Shown in pieces: positions 11,644 to 30,290 of a stretch of 64,000 nt of DNA. Positions within the stretch are counted from its first letter, which is position 1; each line of letters begins with the position of its first letter. The DNA lies in the IMG/VR virus record IMGVR_UViG_3300023181_000002, positions 1-64,000 of that record. The stretch is one strand, 5' to 3'. This stretch comes from a virus. A program made the position numbers and the translations under genes. The notes under the pieces were generated by a model, which saw only the letters and a list, made by a program, of their open reading frames with translations, ran no database searches and was not told where the DNA came from.

Positions 11644-11748
11644 TCATTCGTGTTGCGGCGTTATGATAAAAATAGTCAAATAAAGATATTCATAGCTTTG
11701 TCCGAGTACTGCCCGCAACCAGGAAAGGACAAAGCTATTTTGCTTTTT
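11644..11748 (+). ncRNA. Pseudoknotted RNA with terminator-like stem, upstream of HNH gene
   Basis: ATAGCTTTGTCC (11692-11703) pairs perfectly with GGACAAAGCTAT (11727-11738), a 12-bp stem with a 23-nt loop. CCGCAAC in that loop (11713-11719) is perfectly complementary to GTTGCGG at 11652-11658, forming an H-type pseudoknot. TTTTGCTTTTT follows the stem. The element ends 15 nt before the ATG of the HNH nuclease. Either a short regulatory RNA with its own terminator or a leader controlling the nuclease. The same architecture recurs at 29425-29556. Confidence 0.6.
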
Positions 11749-11753
11749 AAATC

Positions 11754-12776
11754 ATGAAAGAAACAGTTTCAAAAGAGAATTGGGAGATTTACATTAAACA
11801 CTTATTTTCTCATCTCGAAGAGAGGCTTGATCAAGTCGTTAGTAATAATTATGCAGCAGCCAGATTTATTGAATTCTTAAACGAAAACATCGAATGTGTT
11901 GAAGTATTAAATGATCGGTATTTGCAAATCAATACAGAGAGTTTCTTTTACGAAACAGATGTAGAGATAGGCGATTTGTACAGAGCATTGACTAACAAGG
12001 AGCTGTCTGACACATTTAACCTTGTTAATTTTAATAATTACAAAATACTGATTCATAGATACGAATCTTTTGAATCTGCATTTGAGGCTGAAACTAAGAG
12101 AAAATATCAATTGTCCTTAAGATATACACAGCAACTATATGAACCAGAATGGCATGAAAAAAGGCTAGAGGTTTTTGCTTTATATGGTCGAAAATGTACT
12201 ACTTGTGGAACCGAAGACAAAATACAGGTTCATCACAAAACTTACATTGACGGACATCTTCCATGGGAATATGACCTAGACAATTTCACTCCTTTATGCC
12301 AGCGGTGCCACTCAGTTGTCCACAATAAATTAAGAGAGGAAAAACAAAAGGAGGCTAGGGAGTTAGAACCAAAAGAAATCAACTATAACACACCTGTTCA
12401 AAATAGAATAGTTAATGAAAAGTCGCGGTCAAAAGCTGAAATGTTTTTTGACATAATGTTTTTAGTCAAAGCACTTAAGGTTGAATTCTTAATATGTCTT
12501 TTCCCTTGTTTTTCCGAATGGAAGAGAGAAAATAAATGCTATGTGATAACAATAAAGGGCACATGGGAGAGATTTGAAGTAAGTAGGAAATCATTAGCTA
12601 ATTCAGCCTCTAGGATTAGAGATCACAGATGGGCAATGAGACATGGCGACCTTTACATTTTACATAAGAAAGAGTGGGATAGCAGAAAGATAGACGAGTT
12701 TTTGCCTAAAGAAGAGCCTTTTATTCCTTCACATTACAAAAAACCTAAACAAAATACGTATGGTAGATTTAAGTAA
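11754..12776 (+). CDS. HNH endonuclease with unusual N- and C-terminal domains
   Basis: 340 residues. The central HNH/zinc module has C148-x2-C151, H160-H161, N177 of DLDNFTPLC, C182-x2-C185 and H190, the standard beta-beta-alpha-metal nuclease. The EPEWHEKRLEVFALYGRKC lead-in is typical of the family. About 130 residues precede it and about 140 follow (TWERFEVSRKSLANSASRIRD...), both unrecognised and possibly DNA-binding. No RuvC domain or bridge helix exists, so it is not IscB- or Cas9-like. Probably a free-standing homing-type nuclease; the pseudoknotted RNA directly upstream is notable. Confidence 0.8.
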   Translation: MKETVSKENWEIYIKHLFSHLEERLDQVVSNNYAAARFIEFLNENIECVEVLNDRYLQINTESFFYETDVEIGDLYRALTNKELSDTFNLVNFNNYKILIHRYESFESAFEAETKRKYQLSLRYTQQLYEPEWHEKRLEVFALYGRKCTTCGTEDKIQVHHKTYIDGHLPWEYDLDNFTPLCQRCHSVVHNKLREEKQKEARELEPKEINYNTPVQNRIVNEKSRSKAEMFFDIMFLVKALKVEFLICLFPCFSEWKRENKCYVITIKGTWERFEVSRKSLANSASRIRDHRWAMRHGDLYILHKKEWDSRKIDEFLPKEEPFIPSHYKKPKQNTYGRFK

Positions 12777-13134
12777 GAAATACGAAACCGTAGACGGAAT
12801 CTCCGTTCGATTGTCCTTTATCGATGATAATATCGTATATGGCTATATCGGGAATGCCGGTTATTACATTCCTGTTCAATGGCACCTTCTTACAGGGATA
12901 CCCTTATGGAGCGCAAGCGAAGAGATAGATGAAGATTGGTTTGAAAGAAAAGCCCTCAAACAAATCCTCGAAAAGAAACAACTCTCCATCGCCATCTCTG
13001 TAGATCAATTCGGTAAATGTTACCTCCGTGGAGCGGAAACTTTTGGGCAAGACTTTGCCAGGTTTACTGTGAATGTGGAGGTTGAAGAGGGTGGCTTTGA
13101 TAAAGTTTATTACATCAAACCGGAAGAGAAATGA
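12760..13134 (+). CDS. Hypothetical protein, 124 aa
   Basis: Starts within the last codons of the HNH gene (17-nt overlap). Beta-rich N-terminal half (VYGYIGNAGYYIPVQWHL) and a helical segment; the last residues overlap the next ATG. Not recognised. Confidence 0.6.
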   Translation: MVDLSKKYETVDGISVRLSFIDDNIVYGYIGNAGYYIPVQWHLLTGIPLWSASEEIDEDWFERKALKQILEKKQLSIAISVDQFGKCYLRGAETFGQDFARFTVNVEVEEGGFDKVYYIKPEEK

Positions 13135-13277
13135 ATATCAAGCAAAACCCCTACAAGTTCATCCTCCGAAGAGGAAACACTCTGCCAAAGTGCCTTGCGA
13201 AGCTGAAGCCTGTCGAGAATTACGTTTTGATTACCTGTGACGGGAATTTACACACTTTTGAATTGAGATTAAATTGA
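13131..13277 (+). CDS. Small hypothetical protein, 48 aa
   Basis: ATG 13131 overlaps the preceding stop. MNIKQNPYKFILRRGNTLPK... basic beta-type peptide. Supported by overlap and spacing only. Confidence 0.5.
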   Translation: MNIKQNPYKFILRRGNTLPKCLAKLKPVENYVLITCDGNLHTFELRLN

Positions 13278-13284
13278 TATAATT

Positions 13285-13749
13285 ATGAAACAATTAGAAA
13301 TGAAACATTTATCGCCGTATTTGCCTTATGGATTACAACTTTATGATTCCTATGACGATATGAATGTGAGCCTTAGAGGTCTTATTTTAGATGACACGGA
13401 ACCAGTAAAAGTATCTAAATTCTTTCATCTAATTAAAAGCAGGAAAATGGATGAAATAAAGCCAATCCTCCGCCCATTATCTGACTTAATAAAGGAAATT
13501 AATATAAATGGTGAAACAATGGCGCCATGTGACTATTTCGAATATGGAGATGAAAATCAGGATGAGATATTCCGAAACGCCAGCCGAGACTTAGAAACAA
13601 TTGGCAAGTATAATCTGCATCATGATATTCAATTTCAACCTAACGGAGTAATAGAAAAATTATTCGAATGGAAATTTGATATATTCGGTCTTATTGATCA
13701 CAACCTTGCAATAGATGTTAATACTTTACAAGAAAATCCTTACGCTTAA
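13285..13749 (+). CDS. Conserved Bacteroidota phage protein (LSPYLPYGL)
   Basis: 154 residues. The N-terminal MKHLSPYLPYGLQL, the middle KPILRPLSDLIKEI and the C-terminal VIEKLFEWKFDIFGLI...LAIDVNTL are the conserved blocks of a family I know from phages and prophages of Bacteroidota. Function unknown; commonly found near replication or recombination genes. Confidence 0.8.
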   Translation: MKQLEMKHLSPYLPYGLQLYDSYDDMNVSLRGLILDDTEPVKVSKFFHLIKSRKMDEIKPILRPLSDLIKEININGETMAPCDYFEYGDENQDEIFRNASRDLETIGKYNLHHDIQFQPNGVIEKLFEWKFDIFGLIDHNLAIDVNTLQENPYA

Positions 13750-13761
13750 ATAAAAAAAAAC

Positions 13762-14103
13762 ATGAATATAAACCAATTTGTGCGCGGAGATTTAATCACG
13801 CGTGTGGAATCAAATAGTGCCGGTTGGCGAGGATATCTAGGAAGCAAACTGATCTTCTTAGGAATTATGAATAATCAAATTCACTTTAAGGATATAAGTG
13901 AAGACAGATTTATTCCTATTGTTAGTAAAGAGCCTGAAATGCTTAGCTTGGATATGGATATGTGGAGCGAAGGTTGGGCTAAATGGCAAGATCCATCAAT
14001 TTTGCTTGAAGGGTTAGACTTAAACCTGTACCTCTCAAAAGAAGAGCTTAACAGGAGGATTATAGCTGCGGTCGCGGCAGAGGATTATACATTAGCAGAT
14101 TAA
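13762..14103 (+). CDS. Conserved Bacteroidota phage protein (LDMDMWSEGW)
   Basis: 113 residues with RGDLITRVE...IHFKDIS...LSLDMDMWSEGWAKW; co-occurs with the LSPYLPYGL protein in related elements as far as I recall. Cytosolic; unknown role. Confidence 0.65.
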   Translation: MNINQFVRGDLITRVESNSAGWRGYLGSKLIFLGIMNNQIHFKDISEDRFIPIVSKEPEMLSLDMDMWSEGWAKWQDPSILLEGLDLNLYLSKEELNRRIIAAVAAEDYTLAD

Positions 14104-14123
14104 CTTAAAAAATATTTATAACC

Positions 14124-14372
14124 ATGCAAAGAATTTTGATGATATTAAGCTCTATCGCTATCGAGGACACTGTAAAACAGCACGCCGGCAATGTGTTCTT
14201 CCGCTCAAGTGTCATTCTCAATGAAGCCGGCGAACGGGTGGAGAATGCGTTAATAAAAGTTCCTACCAAAGCACTTTGTGAAGTGATTGAGAAGTACGGT
14301 CAGGATATGGAAGCCATACCTTTTGTGATGCCTCTTTTAACGATTGTTTCACCGAAATCAGCTCAGTCATGA
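14124..14372 (+). CDS. Hypothetical protein, 82 aa
   Basis: Short protein with a hydrophobic start (RILMILSSIAIED) that is not clearly a signal peptide. ATGA overlap with the next gene. Not recognised. Confidence 0.55.
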   Translation: MQRILMILSSIAIEDTVKQHAGNVFFRSSVILNEAGERVENALIKVPTKALCEVIEKYGQDMEAIPFVMPLLTIVSPKSAQS

Positions 14373-14638
14373 CCGTACTCGAAATAACCCTCTCAGGGGC
14401 AACCACCATCCTTGCAGTGATCACGATTATTCAGTCGCGGATGGCAACGAAGGCTCATCTTGAAAACATTGCAGAGCGCAAAAGGGAATCCGCTGAGTAT
14501 AATGATCTCCTCGATACAGCACTCACTCAAAAAGGCGTAATTGATGGCCTTGTAAAGATTGTTTATCAATGTCATCCGAACAGGGAGCAGTCTGCCAAGG
14601 TTAGGAGTTTAATATCAAACAAGAAAGCTAAAGTTTAA
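14369..14638 (+). CDS. Membrane-anchored hypothetical protein, 89 aa
   Basis: Residues 5-23 (EITLSGATTILAVITIIQS) form an N-terminal membrane helix followed by a charged helical cytosolic domain (ENIAERKRESAEYNDLLDTAL). Overlaps the previous gene by 4 nt. Not recognised. Confidence 0.6.
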   Translation: MTVLEITLSGATTILAVITIIQSRMATKAHLENIAERKRESAEYNDLLDTALTQKGVIDGLVKIVYQCHPNREQSAKVRSLISNKKAKV

Positions 14639-14646
14639 ACCAAAAT

Positions 14647-15924
14647 ATGAAATACTTAAAACTCCAAAACAAAGGATTGCTCGATTTAAGATTACTCTCT
14701 TTAATGGGAGGCACAACTAAATCGAAGGATGAGTTTAAAATCGGCCAATGGGGAAGCGGATTGAAATACACCTTGGCGTACCTTCTCAAAAACAACGTTG
14801 ATTTTAAGGTATTCATCGGAGAACAAGAGGTAAATATTACCACGCACACAGAAATCATCCGTGACGAAGAGTTTGAAATTATCCTTGTAAACGGAGAGAA
14901 GACTTCAATCACAACCCAGATGGGCGGTAAAGCTTGGGAACCTTGGATGATTATTCGGGAGCTTTGGTGCAATTGCCTTGATGAAGGTGAACCTTTTAAG
15001 GAAGTTACACAGGAAGTAACCGGCAAAGAAGACACTACAACGTTTTTTATTCAGGTAATCCCCGAAATCAGGGAGGTTCTTGATAATTGGGATCATTACT
15101 TTATCCATGAATTGGAGCCAATGTCAGAAACGCCTGCTCATAAAATCTACAAAGGCGGCAATGCTTTAAGATTGTACAAGCAAGGGGTGCTCATTTATGA
15201 AGACAAAAAGCAAAAAAGTTTATTCTCCTATGATATCCGTAATGCGGAAATAAATGAGCTACGAGAGTTTAAGGGAACTATTTCTTATAGCATGGTACAG
15301 GCGTTGGCATATGCCAATGAGAAGGTAATTTCTTATTTCCTTGAAAACATCACAGATCAGTTTTACGAAGGATTAATGGATTACGATTGGTATGTGTCTT
15401 TTTCTGATAACTGGAAGAAAGTAATAGGTAGCGCAAAGCTAATCCACCCGAAAGCGATTGAGACCATACAGGCGCGCGGTTTGGAATTCGACTACGCGGA
15501 GTGTATTACAGTTCCTGAGAAGGTGTTTAAATTTCTAACAGCACAATTCAACGGGGTAGGCGCTTTAAGGACTGCCGACAAAGTGAATGAGTTTTATGAG
15601 ATATATGATCAGGGACTAGAAACGAAGGTTAAGCAGGCTCAGTTAATTCTTGAAGAGTGCGGCTATTTTATTCACCCTGAATTGAAGTTCGTCTTTGGAG
15701 CTTTCGGCGATAAAAGAGTACTCGCTAAAGTGAATCTTGATTCGAAAGAGGTTCTGATCAGTGAAGCGATGAAAAATAAATCGATGTTCTGTTTCATAGG
15801 AATGCTCATTGAAGAAAATGAGCACTTTAATACGGGTTTCTCAGATCACACCCGTGAGTTCCAACAGCATTTTATCGATCTGTACACAAAATCACTTCTT
15901 GATAGTCAAAGCGTATTTTTATAA
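14647..15924 (+). CDS. GHKL-ATPase-like phage protein with C-terminal His/Glu motif
   Basis: 425 residues. The N-terminal LLSLMGGTTKSKDEFKIGQWGSGLKYTLAYLL (IGQWGSGLK at 32-40) resembles the second ATP-binding motif of Hsp90/GyrB/MutL-type (GHKL) ATPases, and LLDLRLLSLMG precedes it as helix 1. The C-terminus IEENEHFNTGFSDHTREFQ resembles the EExxH...G..D.sRxxQ element seen in large phage GHKL proteins. The central part is unrecognised. Such proteins are common in phages, with no assigned role; remodelling of protein or DNA complexes is possible. Confidence 0.55.
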   Translation: MKYLKLQNKGLLDLRLLSLMGGTTKSKDEFKIGQWGSGLKYTLAYLLKNNVDFKVFIGEQEVNITTHTEIIRDEEFEIILVNGEKTSITTQMGGKAWEPWMIIRELWCNCLDEGEPFKEVTQEVTGKEDTTTFFIQVIPEIREVLDNWDHYFIHELEPMSETPAHKIYKGGNALRLYKQGVLIYEDKKQKSLFSYDIRNAEINELREFKGTISYSMVQALAYANEKVISYFLENITDQFYEGLMDYDWYVSFSDNWKKVIGSAKLIHPKAIETIQARGLEFDYAECITVPEKVFKFLTAQFNGVGALRTADKVNEFYEIYDQGLETKVKQAQLILEECGYFIHPELKFVFGAFGDKRVLAKVNLDSKEVLISEAMKNKSMFCFIGMLIEENEHFNTGFSDHTREFQQHFIDLYTKSLLDSQSVFL

Positions 15925-15943
15925 AATTTAAACCAAAACAATC

Positions 15944-16987
15944 ATGAAACACATCTTGTTAACATCCCTTTTAAGCGCACTTTTATTCGCATCCTGCCAA
16001 CATAATGACCCTGTTGTGAAATCCTCCGAGGTGGGTTATATCCGCATGGCGTTTAACTATAAAGACGGCACCTCTGAATATTCCCGGATTGTGGACATTG
16101 AAAAGAATTCTTCTTTAAGAACAAACCTTGAGAATAGAACCATTTCAGGGGTGGTAACTTTACCGGATGGCGAGTATGGAGTGATCACAATGGAGGAAGG
16201 AAGCTGGCTTAAAGTTGAAGGGAAAGTGACAATACAGAATCTAAACACGAACAAACCTTGCGTGATTAACATCTATAAGACAGCAGATTTCGAACTGAAG
16301 GGTAGTCTGAATCTTAATGGCGGGATAACTTTCGTGAACGAGTCTCCCAACTTTAAAATCGGCAATGCGATAGAACTTCAAAATAGTAAAAGCCAGAGCA
16401 CGGGCAATTCTTTTGAATCTTATTATTCGTTCTCCTGCCAGGAGATGCAAATCAATGATCCTTATTCGATATTCATCCTTCGCGGATGTGGCACCGTAAT
16501 GACAGTAAGCAACGCGGTCAACTTTAACGGGAATGCTGAAGATAAGTTTGTACTGGTTGAAGGTGCCTCTTTGGTGACGGGGATTTTAAATGTCAACAAT
16601 AAAAATGTATTCTCCGGAGAAGGACTTGTCAAAGTGCTGAATAACGTCAATCTCAACAATAACCTCACAACTTCAAGCAAGATTAAATTCTGCTACGTAG
16701 ACGGCTCAGGAAATCCCCGTTCGCTGAATAACCCTGAGAAGTTGGGTAGTGCGGTCAGAAGCTGCGAAACAGGGTGTAAACCTTTGGCTGTTCACATCGA
16801 GAGTATTTCTGCAAAGAGTGCCGGTGAGAATAGTGTCTTTGTCAGTTTCAAAGTAACAGAGAACACCAATCTATCCTCGTGGACAGTAGAGTTCTCTAAA
16901 GGTGCCAAATCGTGGAAGAAAGTGTATAGCGGGTCCGCTTCGGAGTTAAATGTTGGAAAGGTGTTTTCTAAAGAGGTAAACTTTTGA
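15944..16987 (+). CDS. Phage-encoded outer-membrane lipoprotein, beta-helix-like
   Basis: 347 residues. A lipoprotein signal peptide ends LLFASC with Cys18 as lipidation site; QHNDP follows. The body (about 40-230) has irregular 20-25 residue beta repeats rich in Asn/Gly (GVVTLPDGEYGVITMEEGSWLKVEGKV...), suggesting a solenoid, and about 270-345 looks like a fibronectin/Ig-type domain. It lies within the plus-strand early/replication arm, so it is probably made by the infected cell and displayed on its envelope, where superinfection exclusion is a natural hypothesis. It could alternatively be a captured host surface gene. Confidence 0.6.
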   Translation: MKHILLTSLLSALLFASCQHNDPVVKSSEVGYIRMAFNYKDGTSEYSRIVDIEKNSSLRTNLENRTISGVVTLPDGEYGVITMEEGSWLKVEGKVTIQNLNTNKPCVINIYKTADFELKGSLNLNGGITFVNESPNFKIGNAIELQNSKSQSTGNSFESYYSFSCQEMQINDPYSIFILRGCGTVMTVSNAVNFNGNAEDKFVLVEGASLVTGILNVNNKNVFSGEGLVKVLNNVNLNNNLTTSSKIKFCYVDGSGNPRSLNNPEKLGSAVRSCETGCKPLAVHIESISAKSAGENSVFVSFKVTENTNLSSWTVEFSKGAKSWKKVYSGSASELNVGKVFSKEVNF

Positions 16988-16990
16988 GGT

Positions 16991-17467
16991 ATGAAACCAG
17001 AGTTAACACTTGAATTGAAAAAACGTTTCTATGCTCAATACTATGGGCAAAAAGTAATGGCAGATAAACAAATGCCGGATAAAACTTTTGACGTGGATTT
17101 AACTTATGCTGAAAGGGAAAGAAGTTATTTAAAACTTCGTTCGGTTTCGAAAATTACCGACGAAGAAGCGATTGAGGTTGCTAAGATAATTTTACCTCGC
17201 TTTGATGTATCATCAGTCGAACGTGGCGATGAAGTGGGAGTTTGGCTAGGTGATCATAGAGTTAGTATTTACAATGATTCATCTGGATTTTGCTTGGAAT
17301 ATAGAGAACACCCTAAGCAGATAGAGAGTTGTTACATAACTATGAACATCTTTAACGAACTTCATGCCTATCAATATCTTCAATCGATCGGAGTAATAAC
17401 CGATTTCATGGGCTACTCCGTAGAAGAACTTGTAAATGCCGGTTGGGTTAGACTTATTGAATCATGA
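16991..17467 (+). CDS. Hypothetical protein, 158 aa
   Basis: Soluble mixed alpha/beta sequence; VGVWLGDHRVSIYNDSSGFCLEYRE is a beta-rich middle and EELVNAGWVRLIES the end. Starts 3 nt after the lipoprotein stop and overlaps the next gene. Not recognised. Confidence 0.6.
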   Translation: MKPELTLELKKRFYAQYYGQKVMADKQMPDKTFDVDLTYAERERSYLKLRSVSKITDEEAIEVAKIILPRFDVSSVERGDEVGVWLGDHRVSIYNDSSGFCLEYREHPKQIESCYITMNIFNELHAYQYLQSIGVITDFMGYSVEELVNAGWVRLIES

Positions 17468-17688
17468 AGCAACACACCTTCAAGCCCCACCCTTCGCCGA
17501 TGGACATCCCTCACAGTTATAATCCCGAAAGGTGTACCACTTGCGGGATGGATAAATACCCGATAAAGCTGAGAGTTGACGGAGAATACATTTACTATAA
17601 TTTATACTGGGGAAACAACAGATACCTCGGGGAGAATCTCCCTGAGTGTGTAAACTGGGAAGAGGAAAACTTTAAACGGATCGATTGA
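17464..17688 (+). CDS. Small protein with CxxC motif, 74 aa
   Basis: Contains ERCTTCGMDKYP, a single CxxC; a full zinc ribbon would need a second pair, and only one more Cys (in PECVNW) is present. Function unknown. Confidence 0.55.
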   Translation: MKQHTFKPHPSPMDIPHSYNPERCTTCGMDKYPIKLRVDGEYIYYNLYWGNNRYLGENLPECVNWEEENFKRID

Positions 17689-17689
17689 T

Positions 17690-17947
17690 ATGAAAAGAGA
17701 TAAAATAGCGAGGTGTAATATTGTCTGCCAGGATTATGAAACAGCAAAAGATGTTGTAGAAAAACTACTTGAGAAAGGATTTACATGGAGATACCCTGAA
17801 GAGGTTACTTCCTACGGATGGGACTTGGTAAAATCTCCTGCTGTGTATTCTATCGAAGGAGGCTTTATTGTCATATCGGATATGGAAATGCAATCCCGGT
17901 CAAAGTTGCAGATTACAGGGAAGTATTTCTTGGTGAATAATTATTGA
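17690..17947 (+). CDS. Hypothetical protein, 85 aa
   Basis: NIVCQDYETAKDVVEKLLEKGFTWRYP is a strand-helix unit typical of small ferredoxin-like phage proteins. Last gene before the promoter at 17965. Not recognised further. Confidence 0.6.
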   Translation: MKRDKIARCNIVCQDYETAKDVVEKLLEKGFTWRYPEEVTSYGWDLVKSPAVYSIEGGFIVISDMEMQSRSKLQITGKYFLVNNY

Positions 17948-17964
17948 AAAATAATTGGTAATAT

Positions 17965-17997
17965 TTGGTATATTTAAAAACATTTTAGTTAACTTTG
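17965..17997 (+). promoter_or_regulatory. Promoter upstream of the MerR-like gene
   Basis: TTG at 17965-17967 and TAACTTTG at 17990-17997 (25 nt between starts, two more than in the other promoters). Its transcript would start only a few nt before ATG 18002, giving a nearly leaderless mRNA. Confidence 0.5.
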
Positions 17998-18001
17998 GTG
18001 T

Positions 18002-18151
18002 ATGGAATACAAAATGAAAGAGTATGCGGCGCTGAAGCGTGTGTCATATCAAACCATAAAGATGTGGGTAAAAAAAGGATTGGTTAAGACGATAGCTCTG
18101 CCAAGTGGTCGCGTCCGGATTATCGACGAGAATTTAGAAGTGCCATCTTAA
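18002..18151 (+). CDS. MerR/excisionase-like DNA-binding protein, 49 aa
   Basis: MKEYAALKRVSYQTIKMWVKKGLV is a compact MerR-type helix-turn-helix with a following beta turn (IALPSGRVRII). The size matches excisionase/AlpA-like regulators. Directly upstream of an antirepressor gene and with its own promoter, it is likely part of a small control circuit. No integrase is visible, so a role in excision cannot be claimed. Confidence 0.7.
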   Translation: MEYKMKEYAALKRVSYQTIKMWVKKGLVKTIALPSGRVRIIDENLEVPS

Positions 18152-18162
18152 ATAATTGATAT

Positions 18163-18966: not shown

Positions 18967-18984
18967 TAAACTAAATAAAACTTC

Positions 18985-19308
18985 ATGGAACAACCATATT
19001 ACGCAAGCGTTGACTTTGACAAGGATTACCTCAGAGAGTGTGATTTGATTAAAAAATTCACAGGACTTGATCAATATTCAATAGGATCAAATGATTTGCT
19101 CGATGCTATTCTTGAAATAGAATCATCGGGAGAGTTTTGTTTTACGAGGACTAAATGGAATTGCAGTATAGATTACTGTGATCTTTCTAGGCGAGGTGAA
19201 TGTGCTTTGTCTTTTGGTATTACACAATGGTTCACCGCTGAAGAAAATTGCATTCACTTTGTTTTGGTTCAATTTGTTGAATGGTATTTTAAAGCAACAC
19301 GATCATGA
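18985..19308 (+). CDS. Hypothetical protein, 107 aa
   Basis: Soluble protein with several Cys (FCFTRTKWNCSIDYCDLSRRGEC) and an aromatic C-terminus. ATGA-type overlap with the next gene. Not recognised. Confidence 0.55.
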   Translation: MEQPYYASVDFDKDYLRECDLIKKFTGLDQYSIGSNDLLDAILEIESSGEFCFTRTKWNCSIDYCDLSRRGECALSFGITQWFTAEENCIHFVLVQFVEWYFKATRS

Positions 19309-20455: not shown

Positions 20456-20460
20456 TCATC

Positions 20461-22315: not shown

Positions 22316-22349
22316 TAACTACTTGATAATCAGTAACTTAAATGATAAA

Positions 22350-22664: not shown

Positions 22665-22927
22665 AAGCTAAATTTTATCAAAAATTCTTCAACAACTTGA
22701 CCAAGGAGGAATTAGAAAAAGAAGTATTATTTATCTCGGAAGAGTATAGTTTATCGGGATATGTCAAGAAAATTAAAAAAGCTCCTCATAATCTACTTTG
22801 GGATGGAGAAGATGATCCGAGTCCACTACACACCAAGGCATACTTCTTAAAAGAAGGCCATGACGCAGAAGATGTAGAATCTTATGTGGTAGAAATTCAC
22901 AAAGGAGATATTGTAATTGAAATATGA
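22661..22927 (+). CDS. Hypothetical protein, 88 aa
   Basis: Lys-rich, no membrane segment (FNNLTKEELEKEVLFISEEYSLSGYVKKIKKAP). Lies between the SSB and DUF1351-like genes with ATGA overlaps on both sides, so probably part of the recombination module. Confidence 0.6.
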   Translation: MKAKFYQKFFNNLTKEELEKEVLFISEEYSLSGYVKKIKKAPHNLLWDGEDDPSPLHTKAYFLKEGHDAEDVESYVVEIHKGDIVIEI

Positions 22928-24021
22928 AAACAGAACCACAAATAGAAATCACACCTAACGAGGTTAAACTTATCCCGATCACCAAGATCGAGTCGGACAT
23001 TTTAGCGATAAAAGAGAAATGCAAATCGCTAAAGATTGAAAGTCCGACAGATAAAACCGGATTCAACAAGGTCGTCGAAAACCGTAAGGCGTTAAAAGCT
23101 TTGAATGTTCTTATCGAGAAGAATCGCAAAAGTCTTGTTGAAGAGTCAGTTTCCTGGCAGAAACAAGTAAACTCAGCTGCCCGTAAGTTGTCCGCTATGG
23201 TGGATGAAATCAAGACCCCTCTCGAGTTTATGGAGAGCGAGTTCATCCTTGCGGGGGAACATGAGAAGATGCGTGTCGAAGCAGAGAAGCAAGCCAAGGT
23301 GCAACAACGCGCTGAAAAAATACTCGCTCTCAACGCACGCTACAACGGCACCCACTTCATCCTTGGGCAGGTACAAATCAGCCAGGCTGCGATAGAAAAG
23401 TTGAGCGATGAGGATTTTGAAGGAGAATTAGCTTTAATGACGCAAGAGTCAGAAGCAATCCTTGAAGCGGATCGCCTTGAGAAGGAGCGACAACTCGCAG
23501 AGAAGACCCGGTTAGAAGAGGAGCGTAAAGAGTTGGAAGCTTTACGGGCTAAACTTGAAGAGAAGGAGAAAGCGTTGAATGAAAAAGAAGCAGCGAAAGG
23601 TGAGACTGCCGCTAAATTACTTGTTAATGGCACAGACTCCGAAGCGGAAGCTATAAAAGAAGAGTTTGACGCTAAGAGAGAATCCGTAGAAAGTTCTTTT
23701 GTGAATAACTTATTTCCGAAGTCTGTCATGGATCAGATTGATACAATTATTAATAATGAGAGTCCGCAAGCAGAGAAGAAATTAGCGGATATGAGCGAAG
23801 ATTCAATATTCACACTTTTAAACGAAACTACAGGCAGGAGAGACTTTATAAATCAACCCGCAGAAATCATCGGAGAAGCCATCACCGAACCGGAAGACAT
23901 GAATATATTATTCGCCTTGGAGCAGTACGCAGCAGAGTTGTACGGCAGTAAACCCTCTTTGGCGAAAGCCTTTAAAGAAGGTGCACTCTGGATGCAGGAG
24001 AAATTGAAAATTGTTGAGTAA
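22924..24021 (+). CDS. DUF1351-like coiled-coil protein of the recombination cluster
   Basis: 365 residues. The N-terminal third (IKEKCKSLKIESPTDKTGFNKVVENRKALKALNVLIEKNRKSL...) matches the DUF1351 plan, followed by a long Glu/Lys/Arg/Ala coiled coil (about 175-225) and a C-terminal helical domain. DUF1351 genes commonly sit beside SSAP/SSB recombination genes. A 9-bp hairpin terminator follows. Confidence 0.65.
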   Translation: MKTEPQIEITPNEVKLIPITKIESDILAIKEKCKSLKIESPTDKTGFNKVVENRKALKALNVLIEKNRKSLVEESVSWQKQVNSAARKLSAMVDEIKTPLEFMESEFILAGEHEKMRVEAEKQAKVQQRAEKILALNARYNGTHFILGQVQISQAAIEKLSDEDFEGELALMTQESEAILEADRLEKERQLAEKTRLEEERKELEALRAKLEEKEKALNEKEAAKGETAAKLLVNGTDSEAEAIKEEFDAKRESVESSFVNNLFPKSVMDQIDTIINNESPQAEKKLADMSEDSIFTLLNETTGRRDFINQPAEIIGEAITEPEDMNILFALEQYAAELYGSKPSLAKAFKEGALWMQEKLKIVE

Positions 24022-24031
24022 GATAGTTTTT

Positions 24032-24063
24032 ACTTGTAGAGGGATATTCCTTCTACAAGTTTT
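24032..24063 (+). terminator. Terminator after the DUF1351-like gene
   Basis: ACTTGTAGA (24032-24040) is perfectly complementary to TCTACAAGT (24052-24060), followed by TTTCT. Confidence 0.75.
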
Positions 24064-24099
24064 CTAAAAGAAATTCCACTTTAAAACCAGAACCACAAC

Positions 24100-24549
24100 A
24101 TGTTTTACAAAGCAACCATCAAATACCAAGAGCAAACCCCTAAAGGGAAGATTAAAACGATTTCTGAACAGTATCTGTTCGATTCGGTCTCATTTACTGA
24201 AGTTGAAGCAAGACTGGCGCAGATGCAACTTGACGGAGAAATTCATTTGGATATCGCTGTCGAAGCGATTGCTAAATACAACGCTGGTGAGATCATATTT
24301 CATGCAGATCCCGAAAAAGATGACCTTAAATGGTATCGATTGAAATATTATTATCTCGACGGAGTTGAAGAAGAGCAGCCTAAACGCGTCACCGGTTACA
24401 TGATGATCCAAGATGTAGATTCGAAGAGTGCACTTTGGACAGCAGCTACCCGTTTTCAGACGTGGCTTGTGACGGTTTTTGCAGGAAGTTTATCCGAGAC
24501 GAAAATCTTAAGAATCTTTCCCTATAAAAAGGACAACGATAAAGGTTAA
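24100..24549 (+). CDS. DUF4494 family protein
   Basis: 149 residues. FYKATIKYQE...KTISEQYLFDSVSFTEVEARLAQM is the N-terminal signature of DUF4494, a family I know almost only from Bacteroidota and their phages. Preceded by the AGAACCAC motif (24089-24096) and bracketed by hairpins at 24032 and 24566, so it may be a monocistronic unit. Function unknown. Confidence 0.85.
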   Translation: MFYKATIKYQEQTPKGKIKTISEQYLFDSVSFTEVEARLAQMQLDGEIHLDIAVEAIAKYNAGEIIFHADPEKDDLKWYRLKYYYLDGVEEEQPKRVTGYMMIQDVDSKSALWTAATRFQTWLVTVFAGSLSETKILRIFPYKKDNDKG

Positions 24550-24565
24550 GGGTTAGGAGTTCAAT

Positions 24566-24596
24566 TCTTCCGGGGATATTCTCCGGAAGATATTTT
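24566..24596 (+). terminator. Terminator after the DUF4494 gene
   Basis: TCTTCCGG (24566-24573) pairs with CCGGAAGA (24583-24590) and is followed by TATTTT. Confidence 0.7.
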
Positions 24597-24613
24597 AAAC
24601 AAGAAAAATAATC

Positions 24614-24889
24614 ATGCAAAATATCGACAGAATAAACAGCATAATAGAATCATTCTCTTCGCTGGATGATGCAGAGAAAAACAGCCTACTGATCTCTTTG
24701 ATGGAACGTACGCAGGCAAGTAGACTCCTGACAGTTACGGAAGCTGAGAAGGTTAAATCTGACACGGAGAAAGCGATGCTTGATCTTGAGAAGGCGATCA
24801 GGAAGATGAAATTCTCTCAATATCCTGTTTCGGAAAGTGAACATCTATCATCCGGCAACGCAACGACGAGATTGAATGGACATGCCTGA
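24614..24889 (+). CDS. Helical hypothetical protein, 91 aa
   Basis: Charged helices (EKVKSDTEKAMLDLEKAIRKMKF) suggest a short coiled coil. The C-terminus overlaps the next gene. Not recognised. Confidence 0.6.
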   Translation: MQNIDRINSIIESFSSLDDAEKNSLLISLMERTQASRLLTVTEAEKVKSDTEKAMLDLEKAIRKMKFSQYPVSESEHLSSGNATTRLNGHA

Positions 24890-25100
24890 AATTGAAATTA
24901 CAGACACCTTCAGATATCCGGAGGGTAAATACAAAGGAGTCCGCATCGGGCTTATCCCTGAAGCATTATTGAGGGCAGAGCTGGATTTCGGAAAGACTCT
25001 TCGTAAAAGGCAAAACAAACCACTCAGAGAATACTTGATTAAAAAACTTTATGGAAACGAAGAGGGAAGTGTTAATCCGGCAGATACAAGCATTGAATAG
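24876..25100 (+). CDS. Hypothetical protein, 74 aa
   Basis: FRYPEGKYKGVRIGLIPEALLRAELDF... with a basic centre (KTLRKRQNKPLREYLIKKLYG). Start at 24876 or 24882. A nested small gene begins at 25051 in another frame. Not recognised. Confidence 0.55.
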   Translation: MDMPEIEITDTFRYPEGKYKGVRIGLIPEALLRAELDFGKTLRKRQNKPLREYLIKKLYGNEEGSVNPADTSIE

Positions 25101-25194
25101 TCAGCTCTTGACAACGAAGACGGAGGTGATCATTCGGAATTGTAACAGAACCATTAAAATTTTACAGGAACAACTTAAAAATTTACCGAGATGA
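25051..25194 (+). CDS. Small helical protein, 47 aa
   Basis: ATG 25051 lies inside the 3' end of the previous gene, and the stop overlaps the next start as ATGA. METKREVLIRQIQALNSQLL...ILQEQLKNL is a single amphipathic helix, likely coiled coil. Filling the gap so neatly supports it as a real gene. Confidence 0.55.
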   Translation: METKREVLIRQIQALNSQLLTTKTEVIIRNCNRTIKILQEQLKNLPR

Positions 25195-25463
25195 AATTTA
25201 AAATTCCAACAGATGTATATGTAGATGTAATATCGATAAACAACGTATTGGTAAATACATCTTCTGGAAAGAAAAAAGTAAAAAGATTAATTGAGCTTGA
25301 TTTCGTAGAGTTTGTGATATTACAAGACCCGAAAGTTAGATACCAATCTTTGGATGATTTTTCAGGAGTATCTGCAATAAAATGTAAACAAACTGACGAA
25401 TGGTATCTTTCAGAGAATATAAAAAATAAGGCGTTAATGTTTAGACCAATAGATAGATCATGA
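25191..25463 (+). CDS. Hypothetical protein, 90 aa
   Basis: Beta-rich start (FKIPTDVYVDVISINNVLV) and Lys-rich loop. ATGA overlaps on both sides. Not recognised. Confidence 0.6.
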   Translation: MKFKIPTDVYVDVISINNVLVNTSSGKKKVKRLIELDFVEFVILQDPKVRYQSLDDFSGVSAIKCKQTDEWYLSENIKNKALMFRPIDRS

Positions 25464-25744
25464 AATCATACAAAGAAATAGTACATGGATTACTGATCAC
25501 CGAGCTTGCTAATCACATAATATCTGAAGAAGAGGTTGCCAAGAGGCTTTCTAAAGGTTATGTCACTTACACTCTTGAATTACAAGAAAAAGCAGCCGGC
25601 ATGTATGCTCAACAAGTGGCGGAAAGTATTAAAGAACAAATTAAAGAGAATGTTTTCGAAATGCTTAAAGAGGAAGAACTCAATCCATTATTCGTTCAGA
25701 AGATTTTATCAAGCATTATTAACCCTCAGACCATACTCCCATGA
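25460..25744 (+). CDS. Helical hypothetical protein, 94 aa
   Basis: Almost wholly helical, with VAESIKEQIKENVFEMLKEEEL in the middle; probably a small adaptor. Overlaps both neighbours by 4 nt. Not recognised. Confidence 0.6.
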   Translation: MKSYKEIVHGLLITELANHIISEEEVAKRLSKGYVTYTLELQEKAAGMYAQQVAESIKEQIKENVFEMLKEEELNPLFVQKILSSIINPQTILP

Positions 25745-25995
25745 CAACCGACAAAGAATGGCTATTCACAGCCGACAGCTCTTATTTCTCGTGCACCGAG
25801 AAAGTATACACCGAAAAACGCCTCAACCACTTATGCAAATTCGTCAAGAAAGCACATGACAGGAATTTCTTGAAGGAGAACATCAAGCCAAGCTACATCC
25901 ACGACAGGGTTAAATATAGAGCGTGGCAGAAGTTAGAAAGAACCGCACGATTAAAAGTAACTATAGAACCTTATACTTATGCCAATGCACAATGA
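25741..25995 (+). CDS. Hypothetical protein, 84 aa
   Basis: Basic C-terminal half (HDRVKYRAWQKLERTARLKV). Overlaps the following gene by 17 nt. Not recognised. Confidence 0.6.
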   Translation: MTTDKEWLFTADSSYFSCTEKVYTEKRLNHLCKFVKKAHDRNFLKENIKPSYIHDRVKYRAWQKLERTARLKVTIEPYTYANAQ

Positions 25996-26341
25996 TTGGG
26001 CACGAGAAGCCCTGAATTACACCATCAAAGCGATTACCCATATCGAAAGCGGCGAACAAGGTTTAACTCAGCGTCACCGCCTCAGAAAGCTCCTTGAAAG
26101 GCCATTACTCTACATGGAGCATCACCAGGATACCGCTGAATTCGAATCTTCTGACAAAGTACTCTTTCACAAGATACTCCTGAGCGCGACTATCCTGTCG
26201 GAGAACACCTACACGCCAGAGGAAACCTTGAGAAGGTTGAAAATCCAAGAGGTTGACCTTTGGGAATATTTAGGCGAATCGCCTGCTATACATGATCAGA
26301 ACCAGCTTAAAATTGACTTTGATGGAACAGATAAAAATTGA
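25979..26341 (+). CDS. Helical protein with a clamp-binding-like peptide
   Basis: 120 residues, helical (HNDWAREALNYTIKAITHIE...). Near the end it carries QLKIDF at 109-114, close to the QLxLxF beta-clamp-binding consensus, and its gene overlaps the start of the phage clamp gene by 20 nt. It may tether to or regulate the clamp; the overall fold is unrecognised. Confidence 0.55.
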   Translation: MPMHNDWAREALNYTIKAITHIESGEQGLTQRHRLRKLLERPLLYMEHHQDTAEFESSDKVLFHKILLSATILSENTYTPEETLRRLKIQEVDLWEYLGESPAIHDQNQLKIDFDGTDKN

Positions 26342-27494
26342 GTTAAGGTCTAAGGACTTACTGAAAGCCTTCGCCGTTTTGTCAGCAGCTATACCGGCAA
26401 ATCCACTCGTTCCATTATATGCCTACGTGAAATTCGAAGTGTACAACGGCTCAAAAAGGATATTCCTGACAGCGACTGACAGCAAGATTACCGTAAAGGC
26501 GTTTCTTGAAGCATCCTCTGTTGAAATATTCACTTCAGAGAAGAGTTTTTGTCTAACATATACTGATAGCAAGGCTCTGTTGGGATCGCTTCCTGACGCG
26601 CCTATTTCGCTGGTTTACTCCAGTGAAGGGGTTAACTTCGACGTGAATATCATCAGCCAGACGCATGATTACAAATTAACAGGGGAAGATGCGAAGCTGT
26701 TTCCTGAAACGAAGCAAACCGGGACGGATCATTTTGTGATCGATGCCGCGCAATTGAAAGAAGGGATCGGGTATTTACAACCAATTATACCTCCTTCAAA
26801 GGATACTGAGTTCAGACCTTATCTTGCGGGGATATACTTTGATTTCAAACCTGATTACGTTACCCTTGTCGCTTTCGACGGGAATATGTCTTTAGCAATC
26901 TTTGAGACGGATATCGAATCGCCAGGGTTCGCTTCTTTTACGCTTCCTTCAAGAGCGGTGAAACTTTTATGGGATATTCTCTCGAACGGGTCCGATCCTG
27001 TAGGGTTTACCCTCTCAGAGAAGCAGGTTTCGATTGAGTACGGGAATGTGTACTTAACAGCTACACTTATGGAAGGGAATTTTCCTCCTTACAAGGCCGT
27101 AGTTACACCCGACCCTATGTTAACCGCAACTGTTGACATAGACCTGTGGAAGCCTGCTTTAACCCGAGCGATGATTTTCTCAGACAGTAACCGCGAAGCA
27201 TTGCACGCTTTTCAGGAAGACCTTTTGTTCATTACCTCTGAAGATGTCTACCTGTCAAAAAAATCCTCTCAGGACATTTCTTTGGAAGACCGCACCGGAG
27301 ATTCACTGGAGATATGCTTGAATGGAGATAAACTGTTGAAGTTGCTTTCGTCAGTGGGTGGCCCCGGGCAGGTGGAGATTAAAAAAGCGCACGAGAAAGC
27401 GGTAGTCCCTTCAATGTACATCTCGACGAAGGTGAATCATGGGAGATCGGCTTCATTCTTTATTATGCCTATTGTTAGAAATAATCAGTTGTAA
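26322..27494 (+). CDS. dnaN-like: DNA polymerase III beta-subunit-like sliding clamp
   Basis: 390 residues from ATG 26322 (MEQIKIELRSKDLL), chosen over 26292 inside the previous gene. Length and plan match bacterial clamps: three similar domains, with YLAGIYFDFKPDYVTLVAFDGNMSLAIFE as the domain-2 signature, EGNFPPYKAV, and a C-terminal SFFIMPI corresponding to the YLIMPM ending. It encircles DNA and tethers polymerase. A phage clamp of this bacterial type is unusual and no polymerase is seen nearby, so it may capture the host polymerase. Confidence 0.85.
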   Translation: MEQIKIELRSKDLLKAFAVLSAAIPANPLVPLYAYVKFEVYNGSKRIFLTATDSKITVKAFLEASSVEIFTSEKSFCLTYTDSKALLGSLPDAPISLVYSSEGVNFDVNIISQTHDYKLTGEDAKLFPETKQTGTDHFVIDAAQLKEGIGYLQPIIPPSKDTEFRPYLAGIYFDFKPDYVTLVAFDGNMSLAIFETDIESPGFASFTLPSRAVKLLWDILSNGSDPVGFTLSEKQVSIEYGNVYLTATLMEGNFPPYKAVVTPDPMLTATVDIDLWKPALTRAMIFSDSNREALHAFQEDLLFITSEDVYLSKKSSQDISLEDRTGDSLEICLNGDKLLKLLSSVGGPGQVEIKKAHEKAVVPSMYISTKVNHGRSASFFIMPIVRNNQL

Positions 27495-27496
27495 AT

Positions 27497-27706
27497 ATGG
27501 ATTTCATTGTTAATTGCCAAGCTAATTATCGGGATGAATTTAAAAATATTGTTACCAAAGAATATGCTATCAATGTGAAAACTCCTTCATTTGAACCATA
27601 TCTTAAAAATAACAATACGCTTAAATTATTCCTCTTGAACTCGATATTTAAGAATCCAGATTCAAGTAAAGTTAATTTAATTATTACAGGTATAATCAAA
27701 CGATAA
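27497..27706 (+). CDS. Small hypothetical protein, 69 aa
   Basis: MDFIVNCQANYRDEFKNIV... small soluble protein; its last base overlaps the next start. Not recognised. Confidence 0.55.
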   Translation: MDFIVNCQANYRDEFKNIVTKEYAINVKTPSFEPYLKNNNTLKLFLLNSIFKNPDSSKVNLIITGIIKR

Positions 27707-28224
27707 TGTCAAACTGGGAAGGAAAAACTAAAAAGCCAAAAACGGATGAGTGGTACACACCCAAGTATATATTCGATGCTTTGGGATGTAAATTCGACAC
27801 TGACGTAGCAGCGCCAGAAGATAAGAGATTCGTTCACACTCCAACAAAATATTTTATAACGAAGAATTCAAAAGGAGATGATCGTTCTTGGTGTGGCATG
27901 GTTTGGTGCAACCCTCCTTTTTCGGGTAGATCCGGTAAAAGCTGGTGGTTGAATGAGATGTATGAATACGGGAACGGTATTGCGCTAACCCCCGATAGGA
28001 CATCCGCTCCATGGTGGCCTATCGCTGCCAAGCAGTGTGACGCTTTAATGTTTGTTACGGGTAAAATTAAATTCATTCAGCCTGACGGAACTACCGCTAA
28101 TTCGCCAGGAAATGGAACAACTTTATTTGCCTATGGCGCACGAGCTGTTGAGGCTTTATACACTGCACAGGAAAGAGGATTAGGTATAGTAATGATATAT
28201 TCACAAATAATATCCGAACCATGA
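27706..28224 (+). CDS. dam-like: Phage N6-adenine DNA methyltransferase (Dam-type)
   Basis: 172 residues. DEWYTPKYIFDALG (14-27) and WCNPPFSG (NPPF at 69-72) are the conserved start and catalytic motif of the phage DNA N-6-adenine-methyltransferase family (PF05869). SAM-dependent methylation of adenine probably protects phage DNA. Within the replication cluster, with 4-nt overlaps to the next gene. Confidence 0.9.
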   Translation: MSNWEGKTKKPKTDEWYTPKYIFDALGCKFDTDVAAPEDKRFVHTPTKYFITKNSKGDDRSWCGMVWCNPPFSGRSGKSWWLNEMYEYGNGIALTPDRTSAPWWPIAAKQCDALMFVTGKIKFIQPDGTTANSPGNGTTLFAYGARAVEALYTAQERGLGIVMIYSQIISEP

Positions 28225-28565
28225 GCAAATACCTAAAAGGCGACATCCACTTCCTGCTCAACAACCTCATCAAGCAAGCCGATGAAAATAAACCCTGGCA
28301 GGATGCAACCATTTACAATAACCATCTCAGGGATTTAAAAGAATACATCACCTATCTTGAAGGGAATCAGCAGCAGGAGTGGTTGCCGATAGCATTAGCC
28401 AATCCGGAGGATACTATTTTAGGGTACTATCCAGAAGGACAATTAGAAGACAGTCCTATGCAGGTAATGCGCATGAGTCATGGCATGTGGAGCGATGCGG
28501 TTTATCATGAGTGGCATGCAGAACCGACTCATTTTCTTCCATTGCCTAAACCGCCAAGAGTATGA
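28221..28565 (+). CDS. DUF551-containing protein
   Basis: 114 residues. A helical N-terminus, then EWLPIALANPED...VYHEWHAEPTHFLPLPKPP, the W...P and THxxPLPxPP hallmarks of DUF551. Common in phages; unknown function. A weaker relative is at 19526. Confidence 0.8.
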   Translation: MSKYLKGDIHFLLNNLIKQADENKPWQDATIYNNHLRDLKEYITYLEGNQQQEWLPIALANPEDTILGYYPEGQLEDSPMQVMRMSHGMWSDAVYHEWHAEPTHFLPLPKPPRV

Positions 28566-28828
28566 GCACAGAACCGAAAAAGATAAAATCAGCATCAGAA
28601 TTTAGCGCGAAAGTTTTTATTGAATTAACTGAAGTGGAAGCAAGAGCATTAGAAGCTATTGCCGGATATTCAGTAAAAGACTTCCTGAGAATATTTTACG
28701 AACACTTAGGCAAGTCTTATTTGCAACCACACGAAAAAGGAGTCGCTTCTTTATTCAGCACTATAAAAGGCGAAATTCCAAAGCATCTATCCCGAATAGA
28801 TAAAACTCGTAAAATATGGAACGAATGA
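28562..28828 (+). CDS. Conserved Bacteroidota phage protein (ALEAIAGYSVKDFL)
   Basis: 88 residues. ELTEVEARALEAIAGYSVKDFLRIFYEHLGKSYLQPHEKGVASLF matches a recurring family in Bacteroidota phages. Unknown role; overlaps both neighbours by 4 nt. Confidence 0.7.
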   Translation: MSTEPKKIKSASEFSAKVFIELTEVEARALEAIAGYSVKDFLRIFYEHLGKSYLQPHEKGVASLFSTIKGEIPKHLSRIDKTRKIWNE

Positions 28829-28980
28829 GCAAATCACCTCCCGAAGATATCCTCTCCAAAGCCAGGCAATACGCGGCTTCTGTGAGCAAGAATGAATCCT
28901 ATCAGCAGCACCTGATTAAGGCTTATCTGGAAGGGTATCTCGGAAGATATTTGGTTAAACAAAACCCCAAAAAAACATGA
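28825..28980 (+). CDS. Small hypothetical protein, 51 aa
   Basis: ATG 28825 forms an ATGA overlap with the previous stop (ATG 28816 is also in frame). MSKSPPEDILSKARQYAASV... helical, ends KQNPKKT; its stop overlaps the next ATG. Confidence 0.55.
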   Translation: MSKSPPEDILSKARQYAASVSKNESYQQHLIKAYLEGYLGRYLVKQNPKKT

Positions 28981-29219
28981 TAAGCACAGCAGAATACTAC
29001 ATAGCACAGTGTGATAACTGTGGAGAGGCTTGGGTGAATGATCATTATGGATGGTCTGCAATGAATGACAAAGACGGACTTATCGAAATAATGAAAAACG
29101 ATGAGTGGCACTTTGGAGATGGTATCGACGGAGAAGAAGGTAAGTGTTACTGCCCCAAATGTTATAGCTTTAATGATGAAGATGTTTTCAAGTTAGTTAC
29201 ACCAATAAACGAAAAATAG
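28977..29219 (+). CDS. Zinc-ribbon protein, 80 aa
   Basis: Two Cys pairs, CDNCGEAW near residue 12 and CYCPKC near residue 58, form a plausible zinc ribbon around an acidic middle. Nucleic-acid or protein binding is likely. Confidence 0.65.
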   Translation: MISTAEYYIAQCDNCGEAWVNDHYGWSAMNDKDGLIEIMKNDEWHFGDGIDGEEGKCYCPKCYSFNDEDVFKLVTPINEK

Positions 29220-29221
29220 AC

Positions 29222-29386
29222 ATGTTATACTGCATCAGAATTGAAAGAGAACTCGAAGAAGTAATGATTCAACATGAGCACTTCGATACGCCACCTACAG
29301 ATGAAGATATTCTCGATTATATCGACACGCTCGATATTAATTATCAGCCCGATTATGGAAAGTTTGAATATTATCCGGTTGGATAG
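29222..29386 (+). CDS. Small acidic hypothetical protein, 54 aa
   Basis: ATG 29222, 2 nt after the previous stop. MLYCIRIERELEEVMIQHEHF... strongly acidic. Its stop codon abuts the promoter at 29387. Confidence 0.5.
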   Translation: MLYCIRIERELEEVMIQHEHFDTPPTDEDILDYIDTLDINYQPDYGKFEYYPVG

Positions 29387-29417
29387 TTGACTTTGTAAAG
29401 ATTTCTTTCGAAGTTTG
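29387..29417 (+). promoter_or_regulatory. Promoter of the 29.4-kb RNA element
   Basis: TTG at 29387-29389 and GAAGTTTG at 29410-29417, again 23 nt between starts (compare GACCTTTG at 6464). Predicted start about 29424, immediately before the structured RNA. Confidence 0.55.
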
Positions 29418-29424
29418 TGTTGGT

Positions 29425-29556
29425 CAAAAGAGGCCCATCCCTTGAGAAAGGATGTATACTAGACAAGTATTAATTTACCCAAAAGGGTTCGGTATTGAGG
29501 GTTGTCTAGGCTCTCTACTTGGTTACTCAAACCGCCGAAGCCTTTTGGGATTTTTT
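29425..29556 (+). ncRNA. Pseudoknotted RNA with terminator-like stem, upstream of a PD-(D/E)XK nuclease gene
   Basis: CATCC/GGATG forms a small hairpin (29436-29440 with 29450-29454). CTAGACAA (29459-29466) pairs with TTGTCTAG (29502-29509). Within that loop CCCAAAAGGGTTCGG (29478-29492) pairs, with one bulge, with CCGAAGCCTTTTGGG (29535-29549), followed by ATTTTTTAT. The two long stems interleave as an H-type pseudoknot or exclude each other as antiterminator and terminator. The element ends 15-22 nt before the nuclease ATG, exactly like the element at 11644-11748. No known riboswitch class recognised. Confidence 0.65.
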
Positions 29557-29570
29557 ATGACTAAATTTTT

Positions 29571-30290
29571 ATGTATTACGACAATGAGAATCAACTAGAA
29601 AATGCAATCTATTTCTCTAAGCCAGGAGAAATGTTCAGGGCGGGATTAAGCCATTTTATGCATGACCATGTTTTAAAGCAATTTGATATGGGAGTTTACG
29701 GAGTGCCTGATCTTGTTGGACTTTCCTTTTACGAAAAAACTAGTACGAGTTCCCGCGAAGTAGATATTACGATTTACGAATTGAAAGTTGGAGAAATTAA
29801 TATAGACACAATCGTTCAGGCTTCTAAGTATCGACATGGTATGTATAGATTTCTAGTACAGAATAAGAATAGATTTAGGCATGTCGTTGTTTCTTTTAAA
29901 ATCGTTTTGGTGGGGTATACTATTCAAAATCATCAACATTTTCATTATTTGGCAGATGCAGCTAGGGTGTCTTCTTATACTTACAACTTAAAATCAGATA
30001 ACCTCACCTTTCAGCATTACAATCACAGAAATTACGATCATATGCCTTGGGTGGCAGATCCTTATAAAGAATTAGGAACTTTTAATTTTGAATCTTTATA
30101 TGTAGACATATATAAAAAATCTGCCGAAGCTAGAGCTTTATCAAGGCGAGAAGACCGGCTTAATAGTGGTTCACTAGATGAAATTGATAAACTTTTTGAA
30201 AGAAGATCGTTCGAAGAAGAGGCTAGATTTTCTTCATTTAGTGAAGCTGAAATTGAAGAAGATGATGAGGAGTTCTGGAGGAATTTTTAA
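29571..30290 (+). CDS. PD-(D/E)XK nuclease-like protein
   Basis: 239 residues. GVYGVPDLVG (Asp47) followed by EVDITIYELKVGE (Glu70-x-Lys72) is the D-xn-ExK active site, and INIDTIVQASKYRHGM is the usual following helix with a Gln. The C-terminal about 60 residues are charged and acidic. It may be a homing or host-DNA-degrading nuclease, or a recombination nuclease, as it sits at the head of the DnaD-like/DnaB cluster. Spaced from its promoter by the pseudoknotted RNA. Confidence 0.7.
   Translation: MYYDNENQLENAIYFSKPGEMFRAGLSHFMHDHVLKQFDMGVYGVPDLVGLSFYEKTSTSSREVDITIYELKVGEINIDTIVQASKYRHGMYRFLVQNKNRFRHVVVSFKIVLVGYTIQNHQHFHYLADAARVSSYTYNLKSDNLTFQHYNHRNYDHMPWVADPYKELGTFNFESLYVDIYKKSAEARALSRREDRLNSGSLDEIDKLFERRSFEEEARFSSFSEAEIEEDDEEFWRNF

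Follow-up and report, generated by a model that had tools for sequence, protein, structure and literature searches.

A 64,000-base stretch of viral DNA (hereafter the window), which comprises bases 1-64000 of the 99,882-base record IMGVR_UViG_3300023181_000002, contains two elements, E1 at 11.65 kb and E2 at 29.4 kb, in each of which a terminator-like hairpin and a run of Ts lie immediately before an open reading frame (ORF). We consider there to be about an even chance that E1 and E2 are cis-acting terminator or attenuator leaders at the 5' ends of the transcription units behind them. A sequence-only reading of the window had described promoter, 5' strand, loop-pairing pseudoknot, terminator-like stem and nuclease gene at both places, and had proposed either a nuclease-control switch or RNA-nuclease pairs, possibly carried as mobile modules. 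Both elements exist where that reading had placed them, each with a hairpin and a T-run and with an ORF that starts 16 nt (E1) or 22 nt (E2) past the stem, and it was right that they differ in sequence but share this order. The hairpins, the T-runs, their positions, the complementarities described below and the tight coupling to the next gene can all be read directly from the DNA.

E1 and the features that accompany it lie on the plus strand. Its -7 box, TATATTTG (11631-11638), belongs to a sigma-A-type promoter of Bacteroidota, for which the consensus is TAnnTTTG (PMC9723704, PMC6847099), and predicts a transcription start (+1) at about 11643, the first base of a 5'-terminal hairpin in which ATCAT and ATGAT enclose a 15-nt loop (11643-11667). 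Farther downstream is the terminator-like hairpin (11692-11738), composed of a 12-bp stem and a 23-nt loop, followed by TTTGCTTTTT, and a T-rich tail at 11736-11748. The sequence GTTGCGG (11652-11658) is complementary over 7 bp to CCGCAAC (11713-11719) within the terminator loop and would be the 5' partner in a loop-loop, or pseudoknot, pairing. An ATG at 11754, 16 nt downstream of the stem, opens a 340-aa HNH endonuclease gene (11754-12776) whose product exceeds the Pfam cut-off for PF01844 (E 4.6e-5; HNH domain at residues 148-192) and matched 18 PHROGs, mainly HNH endonucleases. The last 17 nt of the HNH gene (12760-12776) are also the first of the next gene (12760-13134, plus strand), which would share the transcript.

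E2, likewise on the plus strand, has at best a weak promoter candidate, TGACTTTG (29388-29395), a -7 box with one mismatch to TAnnTTTG, and the earlier claim of a promoter at both elements is therefore convincing only at E1. Its terminator-like hairpin (29478-29549) consists of 9 bp plus 6 bp with a bulge, has a loop of ~40 nt and is followed by ATTTTTT (T-run 29551-29556). The loop contains TTGTCTAG (29502-29509), complementary over 8 bp to CTAGACAA (29459-29466), the 5' partner of the potential pairing. Twenty-two nt downstream of the stem, an ATG at 29571 begins a 239-aa ORF (29571-30290) that possibly encodes a PD-(D/E)XK nuclease, judging from a PD...ELK...QxxxY motif that we read by eye. 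No profile supported that assignment (Pfam, NCBIfam and PADLOC were among those scanned), the protein has no known relatives, and a single-sequence fold prediction was uninformative (pLDDT, the predictor's confidence score, 37.6) and was not used. Of the two nucleases that the sequence-only reading had named, the HNH enzyme is borne out by PF01844, and the other rests on the motif. A Lin1244-like or replication-initiation-like gene (30301-30918, plus strand) follows after a 10-nt gap (30290/30301), and the dnaB helicase gene, at 31297, is next.

Both leaders are predicted to fold into unusually stable structures. For the whole regions the z scores were -4.4 (E1) and -3.6 (E2), with 0/200 shuffles as stable, and for the predicted transcripts they were -2.8 and -3.0, against a genome background with a mean of -0.26 and a standard deviation of 1.14. 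A duplex-energy test that permitted internal loops was uninformative, and loop pairing was therefore scored by the best single helix that a loop can form with the leader upstream of it; the controls were shuffled versions of the loop and of the leader, and segments drawn at random from the genome. This test gave P values of 0.012-0.03 for E1, 0.10-0.23 for E2, and 0.09-0.26 and 0.01-0.04 for the two further leaders, E3 and E4, described below; combining the most conservative value for each leader gave P 0.014. Because the value for E1 is 0.012-0.03 and that for E2 only 0.10-0.23, we regard the pseudoknot as possible and not as established: the complementarities that had been pointed out are present, but they rise only modestly above chance.

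E3 and E4 were found when the remaining 35.9 kb of the genome, outside the window, was read for further leaders, and in all four the hairpins are more stable than those of shuffled sequences. E3 (95690-95804; L003 12690-12804) combines TATATTTG with the hairpin GTGTT-TTGCAG-AACAC and an 8-bp hairpin with a T-run; the TTGCAG loop of the former and a CTGCAA within the latter's loop are complementary, and a TnpB gene starts 16 nt past the terminator-like hairpin. E4 (89506-89693; L003 6506-6693) also has TATATTTG, followed by a stem, CGCCAAGATT/AATCTTGGCG, that extends from the predicted start site, so that in E4 as in E1 the first paired strand opens at the predicted +1. Within that stem, the strand AGAGGCCCATCTTGAG can pair with CTCAGATTGGGCCTC, which constitutes the 5' arm and loop of the terminator-like hairpin, making the two helices mutually exclusive; on these predicted pairings, E4 presents a textbook case of antiterminator competition. 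Downstream of it lies the gene for a 277-aa helix-turn-helix protein that resembles regulators and replication initiators and is not a nuclease. E2 and E4 additionally share AGAGGCCCAT(CC)CTTGAGAA, 20 columns with 18 identities lying outside the hairpin (the motif AGAGGCCCATCCCTTGAGAA at 29429-29448, plus strand, in E2 and at 89586 in E4), and AGAGGCCCATC occurs at only two sites in the 99.9-kb genome, one in each leader. The alignment score was reached by 0.04% of shuffles (P 0.0004) and by 0.5% of random genome windows; after correction for having taken the best of 36 leader pairs, the shared motif is suggestive and not firm. Its sole match in IMG/VR fell within an unrelated coding gene and was taken as chance. 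A fifth candidate leader, behind TATATTTG at 9247, was dropped, as its fold is not unusual (z -0.73).

The region of the E3 TnpB gene (95690-96839; L003 12690-13839) retains an IS605-like right-end sequence ending in GGATGTCAA. A possible guide, GAAGGTTATTGGTTGA, follows GGATGTCAA; it is not repeated exactly anywhere else in the genome, and its nearest copies, with three mismatches or fewer, are at 9604, 62575 and 67691.

The first gene behind the leader is nuclease-like in three of the four cases and encodes the helix-turn-helix protein in the fourth. Three other nuclease-like genes of the same genome lack such a leader: a second TnpB gene at 72600 (L002 8600-9766), which sits directly behind its promoter, a DUF559 gene at 90790 and, on the minus strand, an ORF (78640-79782) that is HNH-like by a motif recognized by eye and has no Pfam match. 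We also fetched relatives of TnpB (52 viral, 75 genomic) and read the DNA upstream of 37 viral loci and of one genomic locus, the closest; an E3-type leader was present in 0/38 of these regions, and the likeness of the closest relatives (66-67% identity) to the E3 gene begins only about the start codon. On the strength of these comparisons, the leader is the phage's and not the nuclease's. A specific link to nucleases is not supported by our data, because E4 precedes a non-nuclease gene, the other nuclease-like genes and the examined TnpB relatives lack such a leader, and similar hairpins are common in other Crassvirales. What survives of the proposed nuclease-control switch is thus the plausible idea that the leader controls the gene behind it; an RNA of this kind without a nuclease, which the sequence-only reading had said would count against it if seen in relatives, is found in this very genome as E4. 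The idea of mobile modules fares no better. Both nuclease ORFs abut the following genes (the 17-nt overlap and the 10-nt gap noted above) and therefore do not form closed modules, and a leader in this position would act on the whole operon.

The 127-bp direct repeat at both ends of the 99,882-base record makes a complete genome map probable. Eleven phage records, including Azobacteroides phage ProJPt-Bp1, cr4_1, cr118_1, cr114_1, cr115_1 and cr125_1, were matched by the phage's terminase large subunit, with 22-24% identity; the three whose taxonomy was read (ProJPt-Bp1, cr4_1 and cr115_1) are Crassvirales. This match is weak, and it weakly suggests that the phage stands apart as a remote relative of that order. 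Eight stretches, ~395 kb in all, of ProJPt-Bp1, cr4_1, cr115_1, crAss001 and phi14:2 served as controls in a uniform scan for terminator-like hairpins 8-40 nt before an ORF, in which a loop was scored as complementary if it could form at least 6 bp with the upstream 75 nt. The control phages contained 14 such hairpins, ahead of ORFs of many functions (one, at 33345-33373, precedes the annotated intron endonuclease of crAss001), and the present phage contained 6 gene-abutting hairpins, four of them before genes other than those behind E1 and E2. Given the 14 in the controls, a hairpin and T-run just before a gene is an ordinary feature of such phages. Loop-upstream complementarity was seen in 2/6 hairpins here (E1 and E2) versus 0/14 in the controls, and by this count the large, complementary loops are the sole unusual part.

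If E1 and E2 are attenuator-like leaders, transcription would start upstream of the hairpin, at a consensus promoter in E1, E3 and E4 and at a weak one in E2, and the nascent leader would fold into a large-loop terminator hairpin immediately ahead of the first gene's start codon. In E1-E3 the upstream strand may then pair with the hairpin loop, and in E4 with the loop and 5' arm together, and this pairing, in response to some signal, could alter the share of polymerases halted at the hairpin, such that the read-through fraction would set the expression of the first gene and of those behind it. The model draws support from the fold stability of all four leaders, the promoters ahead of E1, E3 and E4 and the placing of the predicted +1 in E1 and E4, the competing helices of E4, the motif common to E2 and E4, the large loops (13-40 nt) with their upstream complementarity, and the closeness of the genes that come after the nuclease ORFs. 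Several observations weigh against it. E2 lacks a good promoter, and loop pairing is weak when the leaders are taken one by one. We identified no ligand for the leaders, nor a leader peptide or an antitermination factor. Covariation partners are missing as well: IMG/VR protein searches returned no relatives of the HNH protein, the PD-(D/E)XK-like protein, DnaB, the candidate capsid-region protein (which had no match at all) or the E4 helix-turn-helix protein, the HNH protein had no relative in GTDB genomes, both nucleases gave a single marginal partial match among 395 genomes of the phylum of the Cyclobacteriaceae TnpB match, and the exact E1 stem was absent from all other viral contigs searched. 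Finally, plain terminators of a preceding operon would look much alike. That explanation, in which the hairpins end the operon before them, the downstream gene is expressed by read-through or from its own promoter, and the loop complementarity arose by chance, had been named by the sequence-only reading as one that would refute it, and strikes us as the main, if somewhat unlikely, alternative. The 14 hairpins of the control Crassvirales, the four additional ones in this phage and the nonsignificant P values for E2 and E3 speak for it; such a terminator, however, has no need of the sigma-A-type promoter found upstream of the hairpin in E1, E3 and E4, its loop usually spans 4-8 nt and not the 13-40 nt of these leaders, and it would account neither for the E2/E4 motif outside the hairpin nor for the explicit competing helix in E4.

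A more ambitious version of the leader model seems to us unlikely. It holds that kissing-loop terminators, whose own large loop is clasped by a 5' strand or hairpin, form a phage-wide class used repeatedly to gate a regulator and newly acquired, potentially harmful genes (HNH, PD-(D/E)XK-like, TnpB). Also unlikely, and placed behind plain terminators, is translational control, in which ribosome entry would be tuned by long-range pairing together with a stable hairpin that lies 16-22 nt ahead of the start codon. The hairpins do adjoin start codons, and precedents exist both in T4-like phages, where RNA structures directly upstream control I-TevI-III, segB and mobE and a very stable hairpin lies right before the ribosome-binding site of seg43(25) (PMC2988022), and in Bacteroidota, where mRNA structure near the start tunes translation (PMC6847099), but this mechanism does not need the T-run that follows each hairpin, and the start codons lie outside the hairpins. 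That these are independent genes for small regulatory RNAs, placed before nuclease genes by coincidence, is very improbable: the promoter and terminator of E1 do delimit a closed unit of ~100-150 nt, yet the four sequences differ, each is tight to a gene start, and none has an Rfam match. We give least credence to the proposal that each leader is a small RNA in its own right and acts by binding the nuclease, either to inhibit it, in the manner of type III toxin-antitoxin systems, or to guide it. The order promoter, pseudoknotted RNA, terminator, nuclease is that of toxIN (PMC5086642), and TnpB is one of the three nucleases. TnpB, however, uses an RNA that lies 3' of its gene, its examined relatives carry no leader, the leaders of the three nuclease genes have no common core, the same architecture precedes a helix-turn-helix gene, and neither tandem RNA repeats nor a ToxN-type toxin was found, all of which leaves the RNA-nuclease pairs of the earlier reading without support.

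Several other features of the window were recorded. Two intergenic segments, 2841-2936 and 6405-6511, share the repeat GAATATTATTTTACATAAAGTATTGCGTATTAATTA and possibly represent a phage promoter class distinct from TATATTTG; ACTTAC is common to the bases before the ATGs at 2937, 6512 and 8741. Interleaved inverted repeats at 955-1001 (ACTGTCAA/TTGACAGT and AAAATGAC/GTCATTTT) could form an H-type pseudoknot or a protein-binding palindrome, and the gene-poor segment 1163-2700 contains many short repeated motifs resembling AGGGTTAACC/AAAGGTT and GAAAGAGGT. A DNA polymerase III beta-clamp-like protein and a Dam-type methyltransferase are phage-encoded at 26292-27494 and 27706-28224, and a very stable intergenic structure (z -5.7) lies on the minus strand between two structural-region genes (57536-57680).

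The present value of these results is chiefly negative, in that what looked like a nuclease link is accounted for by a leader type serving other genes too and by the habit of these phages of placing terminators before genes. Should the leaders prove to be attenuators, they would show a phage taming acquired nucleases, TnpB included, with a leader that is home-made, as no examined TnpB relative carries it.

Among known systems, HEARO, or the omega RNA of IscB, resembles E1 in being an RNA upstream of an HNH-containing nuclease, and the HNH domain weakly matches the IscB model; we rejected this relationship, as the match scored 20.5 bits against a cut-off of 175 and was confined to HNH, and Rfam matched nothing, HEARO being absent from both E1 and E2 even at permissive E-values. 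Type III toxin-antitoxin systems (toxIN, cptIN, tenpIN) have the same order of promoter, pseudoknotted RNA, Rho-independent terminator and nuclease gene (PMC5086642), and their terminator between RNA and toxin gene has a counterpart in the terminator-like hairpins that precede the ORFs by 16 and 22 nt. Here, however, Tandem Repeats Finder (score 30) detected no tandem repeats at E1 or E2, scans of Pfam, NCBIfam and PADLOC yielded no ToxN, CptN or TenpN family member (only HNH, for one protein), and the leader also precedes a helix-turn-helix gene. Hairpins of T4-type homing endonuclease genes (I-TevI, segB, mobE, seg43(25)) are similarly stable RNAs directly upstream of a phage nuclease gene, which there they repress (PMC2988022); those described here differ in ending in a T-run, in having a large loop complementary to an upstream strand, in leaving the start codon outside and in occurring before a non-nuclease gene as well, and the searches for relatives turned up none with an empty homing site. 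A further parallel, drawn without sequence comparison, is the put RNA of HK022, a phage leader close to an early promoter that folds as it is made and acts on termination (PMC9378689); put suppresses distant terminators, whereas the leaders here end in their own terminator-like hairpin. Attenuators with alternative antiterminator and terminator helices differ from our elements in that no ligand or leader peptide is known here and that E1-E3 contact the loop only. Of the features of an attenuator, a promoter sequence upstream of a terminator-like hairpin before a gene is seen at E1, E3 and E4 (and weakly at E2), and a predicted alternative helix that would exclude the terminator is clear at E4, where the upstream strand can pair with the 5' arm and loop of the terminator.

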